Shown here: positions 2,672-7,121 of the stretch, piece by piece
Layout: every line of letters starts with the position of its first letter
How positions within the stretch are numbered: the first letter of the stretch is position 1
Assembly (NCBI RefSeq): GCF_000378385.1
Contig: NZ_KB899660.1
Coordinates: 248,001 to 312,000 of the forward strand
DNA: 64,000 nucleotides
DNA from: Paenibacillus daejeonensis DSM 15491
Lineage (GTDB): Bacteria; Bacillota; Bacilli; Paenibacillales; Paenibacillaceae
Direction: 5' to 3'
Translations under genes and position numbers: made by a program
Notes under the pieces: generated by a model
Database searches by the model: none
Seen by the model: only the letters and a program-made list of their open reading frames with translations
Told to the model about the DNA's origin: nothing

Positions 2672-3676
2672 TTAATCGATTTCCCCTTGGAATTCCTTTC
2701 TATGCTTTGGTTTGCTGCCCGGACTACGCACAGCTTCCTTTTTGCGCTTGCGATTTACATTTCGCTCCTTGCGGGCCAAGTGAGCCAGCTCCTTCTCCGT
2801 TTTACGGTAGTTTGCCAAACGCAGCGGCTCGAGGCTACCGTCCAAAAGAGCTGTTTGAACCGCGCAATCCACTTCAGTTTCATGGCGGCAGTCGCGAAAT
2901 CGACACTGCTCGGCCAACTGTTCGATATCCGCAAAGGTATGCTGCCATCCTTCTACGGTATCCCAGAGCTGTAGTTCACGCATGCCCGGAGTATCCATCA
3001 GCAGAGCACCAGAGGGAAGCAAAAATAACTCACGGTGCGTTGTTGTATGGCGTCCGCGGGAATCTTGATTACGAATATCCTGAACTTCCTGGACGTTATG
3101 TCCAGCTAGCCAATTCAATAATGTGGACTTCCCAACACCGGAAGATCCCGTTACGGCGATGGTTGTCCCTGGCGTCAGATAGTCATCAAGCTGCTCTAAG
3201 CCTAACCGGTCCTGGACACTAATACAGTGAACGGGGACACCCAGTGCTATGGATTGGACCTCTTGTAGAATAGCTTCGGTGTCATCGCAGAGATCTGCTT
3301 TAGTTAGCAACACGACAGGTGAAGCACCACTCTCCCATGCAGCAATTAAGAAACGTTCAAGCTTGCGAGCGTTATAATCCTGATTAAGCGCAGTAGCAAG
3401 AAAGATCTTATCGATATTCGCTCCTATAATTTGCTCTTCAATGGTGCTCCCTGCTTGCTTCCGTGTCATAGCAGAATGGCGAGGAAGCACAGCGTGAATG
3501 ATCACATTTGGGTCGCCTTTCAGCAATTCTATGAGCACCCAATCACCGACTGCCGGAAAATCACCTCTTGCTTCAGCATCATATTCGAACTTCCCGCTAA
3601 CCTTGGCGATCTTATCGCCGTCTGACGAGATGACCCGATACACATGGGAATATTGAGCGATGATTCTCCCAGGCAC
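2672..3676 (-). CDS. rsgA: RsgA/YjeQ-type circularly permuted GTPase
   Basis: RsgA-family GTPases check late 30S subunit assembly and release immature ribosomes on GTP hydrolysis. Seen here: an N-terminal OB-like beta domain (about residues 1-70), then the permuted G motifs in the order TKAD (G4, about 125-128), GSSGVGKST (G1, 177-185), and DTPG (G3, 228-231), followed by the RsgA zinc-binding module with C258, C263, H265 and C271. A lysine/arginine-rich tail suits RNA binding. The GTG at 3676 is the first usual start codon in frame, but it has no ribosome binding site and leaves out an upstream in-frame stretch (ending at a TAA at 3791) that encodes TAYGWSRHWEDSF, resembling the usual N-terminus of this subfamily. 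The real start may be a near-cognate ATC at 3784 behind AAAGGGG, or there may be a frameshift after the ATG at 3768. It may be a second copy rather than the housekeeping rsgA, which usually sits next to prkC. Confidence 0.85.
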   Translation of the reverse strand: MPGRIIAQYSHVYRVISSDGDKIAKVSGKFEYDAEARGDFPAVGDWVLIELLKGDPNVIIHAVLPRHSAMTRKQAGSTIEEQIIGANIDKIFLATALNQDYNARKLERFLIAAWESGASPVVLLTKADLCDDTEAILQEVQSIALGVPVHCISVQDRLGLEQLDDYLTPGTTIAVTGSSGVGKSTLLNWLAGHNVQEVQDIRNQDSRGRHTTTHRELFLLPSGALLMDTPGMRELQLWDTVEGWQHTFADIEQLAEQCRFRDCRHETEVDCAVQTALLDGSLEPLRLANYRKTEKELAHLARKERNVNRKRKKEAVRSPGSKPKHRKEFQGEID

Positions 3677-3822
3677 AAGCTCTTTGTTACTCGATAAGGA
3701 AGCGATTGTTGCTGCAAAACTATCTTCCCAATGACGACTCCAGCCGTAAGCTGTAATAGTGGATTCATGATTTAGTTGGTTGATAACGGATTAACCCCTT
3801 TTTCAAAGAAAATTTGCACAGC

Positions 3823-3848
3823 AAAAAGACCGCAATGATTCTGCGGCC
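3823..3848 (-). terminator. Second attenuator terminator before rsgA-like gene
   Basis: On the minus-strand RNA, GGCCGCA (3848-3842) can pair with TGCGGTC (3834-3828), seven base pairs with one G-U, followed at once by TCTTTTT. It lies about 40 bases before the RsgA-like reading frame, so it would stop transcription ahead of the gene. Its 5' arm can alternatively pair with the 3' arm of the first terminator. Confidence 0.7.
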
Positions 3849-3850
3849 AT

Positions 3851-3877
3851 AAAAAAACCGCAAGATCCGAATACGGT
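3851..3877 (-). terminator. First attenuator terminator before rsgA-like gene
   Basis: On the minus-strand RNA, ACCGTA (3877-3872) can pair with TGCGGT (3862-3857), followed by seven T residues (3857-3851). The stem is short and contains one G-U pair. Its 5' side overlaps the AGAGACC segment at 3881-3875, which can instead pair with GGTCTCT inside the leader ORF, so formation of this terminator is conditional. Confidence 0.65.
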
Positions 3878-3951
3878 CTCTCACGGGGTTGTTAACTGGC
3901 TTTGGCTAATTCACCAAAAACAATTAAATCTTAGACGTTCCCGAAGAGACC
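3875..3951 (-). promoter_or_regulatory. Antiterminator pairing of the rsgA leader
   Basis: GGTCTCT within the leader ORF (3951-3945, Gly-Leu-Phe codons) is perfectly complementary to AGAGACC (3881-3875), which overlaps the 5' arm of terminator 1. If these pair, terminator 1 is blocked, and its freed 3' arm (TGCGG, 3862-3858) can pair with the 5' arm of terminator 2 (CCGCA, 3846-3842), blocking both terminators. This is the layout expected of ribosome-controlled attenuation. Pairings were found by eye, without energy calculation. Confidence 0.6.
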
Positions 3952-3996
3952 GATGTTATTCACGACAACCGACAGGTTCCATTTCATTTCGCACAT
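3931..3996 (-). CDS. 21-residue leader peptide upstream of rsgA-like gene
   Basis: A short ORF, MCEMKWNLSVVVNNIGLFGNV, ends in TAA at 3931. Its ATG at 3996 lies nine bases after a strong AAGGAGG, better than the site of the downstream GTPase gene. An in-frame ATG at 4002 is too close to the Shine-Dalgarno. The peptide has no TM segment or known domain. Three consecutive valine codons (residues 10-12) precede the Gly-Leu-Phe codons that form the antiterminator arm. A ribosome pausing at or before the valine/asparagine codons would leave that arm free; a ribosome reaching the stop would cover it. The role as a stall-sensing leader peptide is inferred from this arrangement. The inducer (a ribosome-targeting drug, amino acid shortage, or an assembly defect) is unknown. 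Confidence 0.7.
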   Translation of the reverse strand: MCEMKWNLSVVVNNIGLFGNV

Positions 3997-4028
3997 ATAC
4001 ATCAGCCTCCTTCACCAAATTTAAATCA

Positions 4029-4034
4029 ACTATA
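4029..4034 (-). promoter_or_regulatory. Candidate -10 element for the leader-rsgA transcript
   Basis: TATAGT on the minus strand lies about 30 bases before the leader ATG. The region 17 bases upstream (TTTCCT) is a poor -35 match, so the promoter is only partly supported. Confidence 0.4.
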
Positions 4035-4109
4035 CCACACGGACCATAATAAGGAAATAGCAAACTCATAATTCACTGAAATGTGTTTCTGAGATATTAT
4101 TTGCTGGAT

Positions 4110-5664: not shown

Positions 5665-6681
5665 TTAGACGACTCGTCTGGAAGGCTGACCACCGTCCAC
5701 GACGCTCAGAGAGACGCCCTGCGGCAGATCAGCAGCCGCTCCGGCCTTCTGCTCTTGCTGACGCGAGATTATCAGTAGCGCGGCCCAGATCAGGATAAAG
5801 CCAACAATCTGGGGAATCGTAATAACCTCTTGGAATACGGCAATGTTGATGAGCACGCCGACCATCGGGAAACTAAGCTCTGCCAAAGTCGCATAAGAGG
5901 CTTTGATGCGGCTGAGTCCTTTGTAATACAGCAACAGGCTTAGCAAGCCTGGCAACAGCGCATGCAGCAACAGATTAACACCCATCAGGGCCATGCCTCC
6001 CGCTTCGCCGGGCAACGACCAGATTTGGCGCTCGGCCAGGGTCATCGCCATCAGCAGCGGCAACGCGAGCATAAATCGCAAGGACGTGACCGTCTCATAG
6101 TTGACCGTACCCAGCAGGTAACGTCCCATCACCGTGGAGCCGCCCCATAGGATCGCTGCGCCGATCGACATCAGACTGCCAGCCTGGAGCACGTCGCTCA
6201 CATTCGAGAAAGGTAGCTGCCATCCGAAAGTTAGCAAATACGTGCCGATAATCGCCAGGATGAACAAGCCCCCGAACGACCTGGGTAGATGCTCCTTCAA
6301 CAGCCATCTCGCCATCAAAATCACGAACAGCGGTTGAAGCTTCTGCAGCAATAGCACCGAGTTTAAGTCGCCCGACGCCAGCCCTTGAGTGAATAGCACC
6401 GTGGCCAGTGCAGAGCCTCCCCACGAGACAAACAACAGTGCGCCTACATGACGCAGCTTGAGAAGCTTCAACTGCTGACGATGTTTCCACAGGACAGGCG
6501 ACATAAATAATACCAGAATGACGTGCTCCAGCAGCGTGATCTGGGTCGAGGTCAGATGCTTGAGCAGCATCATCCGGAACAGCGGATCGACGCCCCAGAG
6601 AGCGGAGCCGAGGACGACAAACCAAAAAGCAGGCTTGACGGCCGGTTTTTTTAACAGGGACGATGACATCAGGTTACTCAT
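5665..6681 (-). CDS. EamA/DMT-family transporter, candidate riboflavin importer
   Basis: The 338-residue protein has the ten-helix, two-repeat layout of the drug/metabolite transporter (EamA) superfamily: about ten hydrophobic segments, a first repeat with FWFVVLGSALWGVDPLF, and a second with SIGAAILWGGSTVMGRYLL and LPGLLSLLLYYKGL. It acts in the cytoplasmic membrane. I chose the ATG at 6681 because GAGGAG lies nine bases upstream; the ATG at 6708 would place that site inside the gene. The gene is the only one behind an FMN riboswitch (6815-6952) and terminator. FMN-switched EamA transporters (ImpX group) are known as candidate riboflavin transporters, so import of riboflavin or a related flavin is the best guess; export cannot be excluded. 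Own terminator at 5611-5657. Confidence 0.85.
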   Translation of the reverse strand: MSNLMSSSLLKKPAVKPAFWFVVLGSALWGVDPLFRMMLLKHLTSTQITLLEHVILVLFMSPVLWKHRQQLKLLKLRHVGALLFVSWGGSALATVLFTQGLASGDLNSVLLLQKLQPLFVILMARWLLKEHLPRSFGGLFILAIIGTYLLTFGWQLPFSNVSDVLQAGSLMSIGAAILWGGSTVMGRYLLGTVNYETVTSLRFMLALPLLMAMTLAERQIWSLPGEAGGMALMGVNLLLHALLPGLLSLLLYYKGLSRIKASYATLAELSFPMVGVLINIAVFQEVITIPQIVGFILIWAALLIISRQQEQKAGAAADLPQGVSLSVVDGGQPSRRVV

Positions 6682-6739
6682 GGTTGATTGCTCCTCATCT
6701 CGCATCAACCTTCAGGGTGTTCCCTTGCTATGGAGTTGC

Positions 6740-6776: not shown

Positions 6777-6814
6777 AGCCAAATAAAACAAGCCGCAGGC
6801 TCATTTTAACATGG

Positions 6815-6952
6815 CGATCTTCTCCCATCCGGACTTTACCGTCGGCCCTGGATTCTCACCAGGTCAGTCCCCTGCCGTGATCGGCTTGGGGGAGTCGCGG
6901 GCTCGCTTTGCAGCATCACCGCCGGTCAGGAATTTCACCTGCCCCGAAGATC
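6815..6952 (-). promoter_or_regulatory. FMN riboswitch (RFN element)
   Basis: The minus strand carries the conserved RFN segments in order: ATCTTCGGGGCAGG, GTGAAATTCCTGACCGGCGG, GAGCCCGCGA, GGCAGGGGACTGACC, GTGAGAATCCAGGGCCGACG and GTCCGGATGGGAGAAGAT. The closing P1 stem is formed by GATCTTC and GAAGATC. This matches the FMN aptamer consensus almost throughout. It is followed by an intrinsic terminator at 6740-6776 and the EamA transporter, so it should repress the transporter when FMN is plentiful. Confidence 0.97.
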
Positions 6953-7121
6953 TCTATGCGTATCATGTATTAATGCTACTATACCTGGCGTCCCATAACA
7001 CTGCTATGATGTTTCTCACAACTGTATTGGACACATTAAAAAAGTAAGTATCAATATTTTATAATCATAAGGATTAATTGAGTAGTTGTCAATACGTTAA
7101 TTAGAAGCTCTGAATCGCTCC

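Follow-up and report, generated by a model that had tools for sequence, protein, structure and literature searches.

A putative ribosome-stall-sensing attenuator in front of a second RsgA-like GTPase gene in Paenibacillus daejeonensis and related Bacilli

Introduction

Why would a gene encoding a GTPase of the RsgA family, known as a late checkpoint in the assembly of the 30S ribosomal subunit, be preceded by a short open reading frame (ORF) and two intrinsic terminators? This question is raised by a locus on the minus strand of a 64,000-nucleotide stretch of the Paenibacillus daejeonensis DSM 15491 genome (contig NZ_KB899660.1, positions 248,001 to 312,000), hereafter called the window, whose own numbering is used below. 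A first-pass annotation, made from the sequence letters, had proposed a leader-peptide transcription attenuator. The parts of such an element are present and conserved in relatives, with alternative pairings and in-frame selection on the leader peptide, and we consider it likely on sequence evidence (a probability of about 0.83) that the leader is a ribosome-stall-sensing transcription attenuator controlling an RsgA paralogue used in times of stress, a stalled ribosome being the likeliest signal.

Organization of the leader and its gene

The locus comprises the following features, given in the order of transcription:

4029..4037, minus strand: probable extended -10 promoter element TGGTATAGT, read from the sequence
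4000..4013, minus strand: segment 1, GAAGGAGGCTGATG, Shine-Dalgarno (SD) region of the leader and candidate anti-antiterminator, paired to segment 2 when the RNA is folded without masking
3931..3996, minus strand: leader ORF of 21 codons, MCEMKWNLSVVVNNIGLFGNV and a stop, from the ORF reading and from S-[IV]-[VA] being enriched in this frame among relatives
3940..3955, minus strand: segment 2, CATCGGTCTCTTCGGG, switch strand within the leader ORF, containing GGTCTCT and pairing with segment 1 or 3
3892..3928, minus strand: hairpin between the leader ORF and terminator 1, present in several predicted states, no role assigned
3874..3888, minus strand: segment 3, CCCCGTGAGAGACCG, 5' arm of terminator 1, from sequence and folding
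3851..3886, minus strand: terminator 1 (T1), hairpin 3886-3858 and U-tract 3857-3851, from folding and sequence, missed by a simple scan
3823..3848, minus strand: terminator 2 (T2), hairpin 3848-3828 and U-tract, from the simple scan and folding, its 5' arm able to pair with the T1 3' arm
3795..3800, minus strand: AAGGGG, SD of the RsgA-like gene, from sequence and start scan
2672..3784, minus strand: gene for the RsgA-like GTPase, a second RsgA paralogue, with a probable AUC start at 3784-3782, from Pfam, TIGR00157, structure model and start scan

Much of this agrees with the first-pass annotation, namely the 21-codon ORF at 3996-3931 with its AAGGAGG site (within 4012-4000), the pairing of GGTCTCT with the T1 5' arm (segment 2 with this arm: -23.0 kcal/mol) and that of the T1 3' arm (TGCGG) with the T2 5' arm (CCGCA). 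Both terminators exist as well, T1 having been misplaced at 3877-3851. That annotation had overlooked one arm, namely the SD of the leader, which pairs with segment 2; a leader that is not translated would accordingly be expected to stay OFF. The RNA from 4020 to 3785 folds with z = -3.47; a consensus promoter scan did not report the minus-strand promoter at 4029..4037.

The downstream gene is an RsgA paralogue, as had been announced. Its product scores 177.8 bits against Pfam RsgA_GTPase (cut-off 30) and 168 bits against TIGR00157 (cut-off 100), its AlphaFold model (mean pLDDT, the predicted local distance difference test, of 79) has RsgA/YjeQ as closest structures, and it carries the RsgA GTPase domain, the C-C-H-C motif and the RsgA fold. 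The canonical rsgA of the same genome lies at G000:C1:577047 and shares 31% identity with it. In a tree with 10 canonical copies as outgroup, 157 paralogues and eight genes of a second subfamily are separate from the canonical ones (branch support 0.758), and the paralogues are further distinguished by an insertion (AG.T.EEQII.AN) and by differences around the G1 and switch motifs. By its sequence, the gene is thus classed as a second RsgA paralogue, not as the canonical RsgA orthologue.

At a threshold of E <= 1e-60, RsgA-like matches were obtained from 245 of 295 family genomes and, at the level of the class, from 134 of 299 genomes (52 of 119 genera). The window's genus was represented by six further genomes: a paralogue of RsgA, though a more distant one, is present in four of them, and the remaining two gave nothing beyond a canonical-type match. 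The gene is patchy, since its nearest relative, from Paenibacillus sp. Soil522 (87%), is assigned to another genus. No ATG, GTG or TTG lies upstream of the conserved N-terminus in its frame, and the codon placed by the SD is AUC 3784-3782, 10 nucleotides past AAGGGG, which is probably the start, common to the gene and its 87% relative (L004). With a simple score, the best SD-placed start in 157 homologues is TTG in 85, ATG in 42, GTG in 26, ATC in two, ATT in one and CTG in one, the two ATC cases being the window gene and this same relative. An ORF of the APH phosphotransferase family, at 797-1900 on the minus strand, is the second gene downstream of the RsgA-like one.

Conservation of the leader and terminators

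The 110 loci sampled all belong to the higher-scoring part of the 245 family genomes with a match (E of about 1e-106 or better), the duplicates L033, L034 and L035 being removed ahead of this count. A script found a leader ORF followed by a terminator at 102 of these 110 RsgA-like homologues. All but one of the 102 have a T1 of -16 kcal/mol or better, and in 87 of these 101 a second terminator follows; picks judged wrong, the leader of L073 and the T1 of L052 among them, are kept in these counts. Six of the remaining eight loci have a leader ORF without terminators (L092, L149, L151, L155, L158 and L160), L162 has leader and terminator with divergent letters, and L163 was placed in neither group. 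The conservation of leader ORF and alternative stems, by which the first-pass annotation proposed to judge the element, is therefore deep, the pairings also lying above their shuffles as described below.

A less strict script was applied to 47 further loci of the class and selected a leader-like ORF in 39 of them. By eye, five or more of these picks are wrong; those of L100, L103, L106, L133 and L143 were kept in the class-set counts. Inspection by eye, without a terminator scan, revealed no leader plus terminator before 11 canonical rsgA genes. The DNA ahead of these genes has the look of coding sequence, and at four of the 11 small ORFs led by an SD are listed. The paralogue L169 has no leader of this type.

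The chance control for the 102 of 110 is a different scan, as the script itself was run on homologues only: SD-pairing leaders were looked for upstream of the 61 ORFs of the window that encode 150 amino acids or more, the RsgA-like one included. Seven have a pairing leader and three of them beat their shuffles, one being the RsgA leader itself (identified by coordinate and by its energy of -19.5) and the other two looking spurious by eye. Chance as the origin of the leader was rejected by this control.

Alternative pairings

Segment 2 can pair with the leader SD or with the T1 5' arm, and both helices are stronger than in shuffled sequences. The SD:segment 2 helix has a mean of -17.6 kcal/mol versus -12.2 in shuffles over 102 loci, at most three of 60 shuffles being as good in 71 of them, and segment 2:3 averages -18.6 versus -14.4 kcal/mol over 101 loci. 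In a sequence-anchored test on 70 distinct triples, in which some anchors are misplaced, the fraction paired for the two helices is 0.819 (shuffle maximum 0.812) and 0.762 (maximum 0.761), in both cases above 1000 of 1000 row shuffles, and the covariation sums of the two helices were reached by 8 and 1 of 1000 shuffles. When 28 relatives are aligned, the SD:segment 2 and T1 pairs are 88.3% paired versus 86.7% in shuffles (0 of 500 as high).

At the divergent locus L162 the pairings are retained in a markedly dissimilar sequence (SD:segment 2 at -22.6, 0 of 60 shuffles as good), and in 12 divergent loci the own combination of SD and leader averages -18.3 versus -13.8 for swapped ones, the own being best in five of 12 rows and six of 12 columns. 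The T1 3' arm pairs with the T2 5' arm at -16.3 when both come from the same locus, -14.4 when swapped and -9.5 when shuffled, with 81 of 87 loci at -9 or better.

For the window gene (L003) and L004, the script took the merged hairpin of T1 3' arm and T2 5' arm as T1, and their rows in the multi-locus pairing and folding statistics are off; our statements on the window rest on separate folds. L073 was left out of the peptide analysis and the multi-locus folds, and L027, which has no T1 at -16, out of the segment 2:3, sequence-anchored and fold sets, giving 100 loci for the masked folds.

The leader peptide

The 142 leaders accepted for the peptide analysis represent 137 distinct peptides. Valine makes up 17.9% of codons 2-14 versus 3.9% in the other two frames, and isoleucine 8.7% of the early codons. 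Within codons 2-15, the pair [IV][VA] is found in 101 leaders when read in frame 0, in 12 in frame 1 and in 18 in frame 2, and the triplet S[IV][VA] in 51, 0 and 0 (n = 137), with varied synonymous codons: the leader peptide is under in-frame selection. The motif is not universal, the [IV][VA] pair being absent after residue 3 in 35 of the 137, and Met-rich or Val-free leaders occur (for example L077). Where the first-pass annotation placed a stall near three valine codons, there is indeed a conserved candidate stall region, characterized by S-[IV]-[VA] or similar residues and not specifically by three valines. The first [IV][VA] lies at a median of 19 nucleotides ahead of the segment 2 core (n = 72; at least 12 nucleotides in 48), and a ribosome arrested there could therefore often leave segment 2 open.

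Proposed switch and its folding

The leader may be seen as a four-part switch made of segments 1 (leader SD), 2 (end of the ORF), 3 (T1 5' arm) and 4 (T1 3' arm). Without initiation, segments 1 and 2 would pair, T1 would form and transcription would end; with the leader translated to its end, the ribosome would cover segment 2 and T1 would form again. A stall within the first ten codons or so, caused for example by a ribosome-targeting drug, would leave segment 2 free if the SD were occupied by the stalled or the next ribosome, and segment 2 could then capture segment 3 while the latter is being transcribed. This would disrupt T1 and free its 3' arm, possibly to join the 5' arm of T2, with expression of the GTPase as the outcome; the enzyme, we infer, could aid the recovery of 30S subunits.

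Folded up to the end of T1, the window RNA forms T1 both without a ribosome and with the whole leader ORF masked, and the antiterminator when the SD is masked, either alone or in combination with a ribosome placed on codon 8 or 10; in these folds the antiterminator requires both a masked SD and an uncovered segment 2. Across the 100 loci, a co-transcriptional intermediate in which only the T1 5' arm has been made gives the antiterminator in 99 when stalled, in none, by construction, when the ORF is masked, and SD:segment 2 in 82 without a ribosome. With T1 complete and the leader finished (masked), T1 is formed in 94, the L003 and L004 artefacts being among the six exceptions.

Several results weigh against a stall-sensing switch. 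A stall with free SD still folds T1 in the window; the SD must therefore be occupied for switching, and the release of segment 2 by a stalled ribosome, central to the first-pass annotation, yields the antiterminator in the SD-masked fold and T1 otherwise. In window folds up to the end of T2, T2 is formed in the SD-masked state only and the pairing of T1 3' and T2 5' arms occurs in several states, the ORF-masked one included, so that the T2 step is unsupported by folding; of the two terminators which a finished leader had been expected to produce, the ORF-masked fold up to the end of T1 gives T1. Once T1 is complete, it persists under equilibrium (minimum free energy) folding in 98 of 100 loci even when stalled. 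The switch must therefore be kinetic, and the predicted folds of partial and complete T1 are best read in this way. Contrary to a strict OFF default, the intermediate without a ribosome has segment 2:3 pairing in 53 of 100 loci, and this helix reaches the level of at most three of 60 shuffles as good in 42 of 101 loci only. Moreover, the shuffle statistics ignore relatedness, and the compensatory changes that the first-pass annotation expected in the stems are missing from both helices of segment 2 in the 28 aligned relatives, with no SD:segment 2 pair changed on both sides and, in a fixed register, segment 2:3 paired at 80.8% versus 83.4% in shuffles (499 of 500 as high). Finally, the window leader has no RLR or RYR arrest motif and no arginine; such motifs are common, though not universal, among stalling leaders.

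Other explanations of the leader

The frequency of valine and isoleucine in the early codons, and a four-segment layout like that of trp-type attenuators, would also suit an amino-acid starvation attenuator, in which slow decoding of these residues (or of alanine, serine or threonine) turns the gene on as in ilv and leu leaders. We give this explanation little credence, as the 35 leaders without the pair and the Met-rich or Val-free ones such as L077 speak against it, and the controlled genes, RsgA-like and RtcB (see below), are not amino-acid enzymes. The near constancy of a strong T1 (101 of 102 loci) and the common second terminator (87 of 101) might be explained by tandem terminators that insulate or damp the gene without sensing anything; the enriched peptide motif, the three coupled segments found across clades and a terminator-less variant led us to reject this mere insulation as highly improbable.

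As the SD is the anti-antiterminator, the leader could instead read the loading of 30S subunits (free or damaged 30S, or start-codon stalls as with tetracycline) and not the arrest of a nascent peptide. RsgA acts on the small subunit, and masking of the SD alone yields the antiterminator in the window fold. RtcB serves ribosome homeostasis (PMC5175333) and tetracycline stalls ribosomes at the start codon of toiL (PMC12121999). In-frame selection in the early codons would be superfluous for such an initiation sensor, and we regard it as improbable. With ribosome stalling as the preferred signal, an attenuator using its leader SD as a switch strand would have the property that only initiated but stalled leaders fire.

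Translational variant and second RsgA subfamily

A variant acting on translation is predicted in another family (f22) and in some members of the window's family. Here a strand further downstream, C, can form a helix either with segment 2 (ACAGGAATCCTCC-like) or with the SD of the gene. At seven of eight such loci (L092, L098, L104, L109, L118, L149 and L155), segment 2:C ranges from -29.6 to -42.7 and C:gene SD from -13.6 to -18.0, both computed without shuffle control; L092, L149 and L155 are the terminator-less family loci for which this was done, and at L098 the best C:SD pairing involves a neighbouring strand. This form is predicted to follow the same logic as the transcriptional one by a different route.

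The second RsgA subfamily, present in the window's genus too, comprises eight loci (L171-L173 and L176-L180) with a short leader of their own and of a different type (MATTYMVVSS), found by script in seven of the eight and by eye in the eighth (GTG), the terminators being recognised by eye. In several of its members a downstream CCTTTCGTG matches, by eye, the SD region CACGAAAGG.

The same leader type before RtcB and a GNAT enzyme

An SD pattern searched in 148 family genomes gave 44 matches versus three for the reversed pattern. By coordinates, 23 of the 44 lie at RsgA-like genes. Sixteen of the other 21 were inspected: 14 start longer ORFs, one precedes a GNAT gene and one (L200) an RtcB gene; one further match, bringing the coverage to 17 of the 21, begins a gene. 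The GNAT case (L192, G027:C18, gene from 420) has the same attenuator before an acetyltransferase, in a same-genus genome devoid of the RsgA-like gene.

RtcB cases were added by a covariance model (R1), trained on 28 leaders with the window included, which makes the window match by construction, and run over 295 family genomes. The inspection covered 20 places, further matches being weak, and yielded four RtcB leaders, five RsgA-like ones and 11 places that are not this element, which we take to be ordinary terminators or, by resemblance, ydaO-type riboswitches. At L222, one of the four RtcB places, the leader lies roughly 0.8 kb before a split RtcB. At L208 (G271:C65) an attenuator leader is followed by an RtcB matching family positions 158-426 only, a full copy being present elsewhere in that genome.

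In the window's own genome, the RtcB gene at G000:C5:117443-118735 (L235) has an SD-pairing leader ORF, MTITHSRAAIAYTQLDTIGLHRTT, upstream (-25.7 kcal/mol, 0 of 60 shuffles as good). Among 50 RtcB upstream regions, out of 76 places listed in 67 genomes, an SD-pairing leader is found in 43, three of which look spurious (L267, L284 and L295) but are kept in the counts, and none in seven. At most three of 60 shuffles are as good in 30 of the 50 versus three of the 61 window ORFs, one of these three being the RsgA leader. Terminators after RtcB leaders were recognised by eye only, and eight other RtcB genes (L228-L230, L240 and L242-L245) show no convincing leader.

We see about even odds that many Bacilli possess a regulon for translation stress that is encoded in cis and has no master regulator, in which separate leaders built of SD, anti-SD and terminator switch on the second RsgA, RtcB and sometimes a GNAT enzyme when ribosomes stall on the leader. 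Should so widespread a second RsgA be under stall control, with the type of switch found before RtcB, some members of the RsgA family would act in stress and not in assembly. Such a paralogue would be a candidate for an inducible factor that protects or repairs 30S subunits, and the second RsgA might represent a new class of GTPases induced for ribosome rescue or drug tolerance.

Neighbouring features

The sole Rfam match at gathering score in the window is an FMN riboswitch at 6813-6955 on the minus strand, with no riboswitch or T-box at the leader, and an Rfam element was rejected on this ground as the identity of the leader. The FMN riboswitch precedes an ORF, 5665-6708, that resembles a transporter gene and matches TIGR00950 weakly.

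Comparison with known systems

The element is probably a device of known kind, its novelty lying in the SD used as a switch strand, in the coexistence of transcriptional and translational forms and in targets for which we found no description. Among the matches listed from open-licence literature, outside which subscription papers and preprints lie, no attenuator before rsgA or rtcB is described; rsgA appears in a table of PMC9290621. The first-pass annotation's view that there is no described case needs to be tempered by two partial precedents, the HflXr leader attenuator (PMC6310831) and a WblC-activated RsgA/EngC paralogue (PMC7157823).

The closest precedent is the attenuator of rli80-hflXr (lmo0762) of Listeria monocytogenes, where mutation of the leader start codon prevents induction (PMC6310831). 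Both systems have a short leader ORF with terminator, antiterminator and anti-antiterminator regions, and both target a paralogue of a ribosome-associated GTPase, the second homologue of Listeria being not involved in resistance (PMC6310831). Indeed, the traits of the hflXr type are found here: an SD-led short ORF, an intrinsic terminator with an overlapping antiterminator, an anti-antiterminator pairing (SD:segment 2) and peptide-level selection. On the other hand, the hflXr leader carries RLR and its GTPase is HflX, whereas the window leader lacks RLR, precedes an RsgA-like gene and uses its own SD as the anti-antiterminator. The leader peptide of tlrB (yxjB) in Bacillus subtilis likewise precedes a ribosome-protecting gene and combines transcription and translation attenuation; unlike the window leader, it has an RYR motif and targets an rRNA methyltransferase, no overlapping antiterminator being identified in that study (PMC6851288). 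The Escherichia coli toiL-topAI system is a possible parallel to the window leader in that toiL is one upstream ORF sensing several classes of ribosome-targeting drugs, but acts by occlusion of the ribosome-binding site and Rho-dependent termination on a toxin-antitoxin target (PMC12121999).

As for the controlled genes, the RtcB homologue of E. coli is induced by translation damage, and rtcAB there depends on the activator RtcR (PMC5175333), whereas RtcB in the window's family has a leader-peptide-type leader. In Streptomyces coelicolor, the WblC/WhiB7 regulon comprises an RsgA/EngC paralogue, HflX and 16 GNAT enzymes activated by WblC under tetracycline, genes which that study contrasts with their paralogues (PMC7157823). 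Unlike the window leader, a candidate cis-acting RNA, this regulon is controlled in trans by a transcription factor (PMC7157823); if our reading is correct, RNA switches of the present type would do in Bacilli what WblC/WhiB7 does through that factor.
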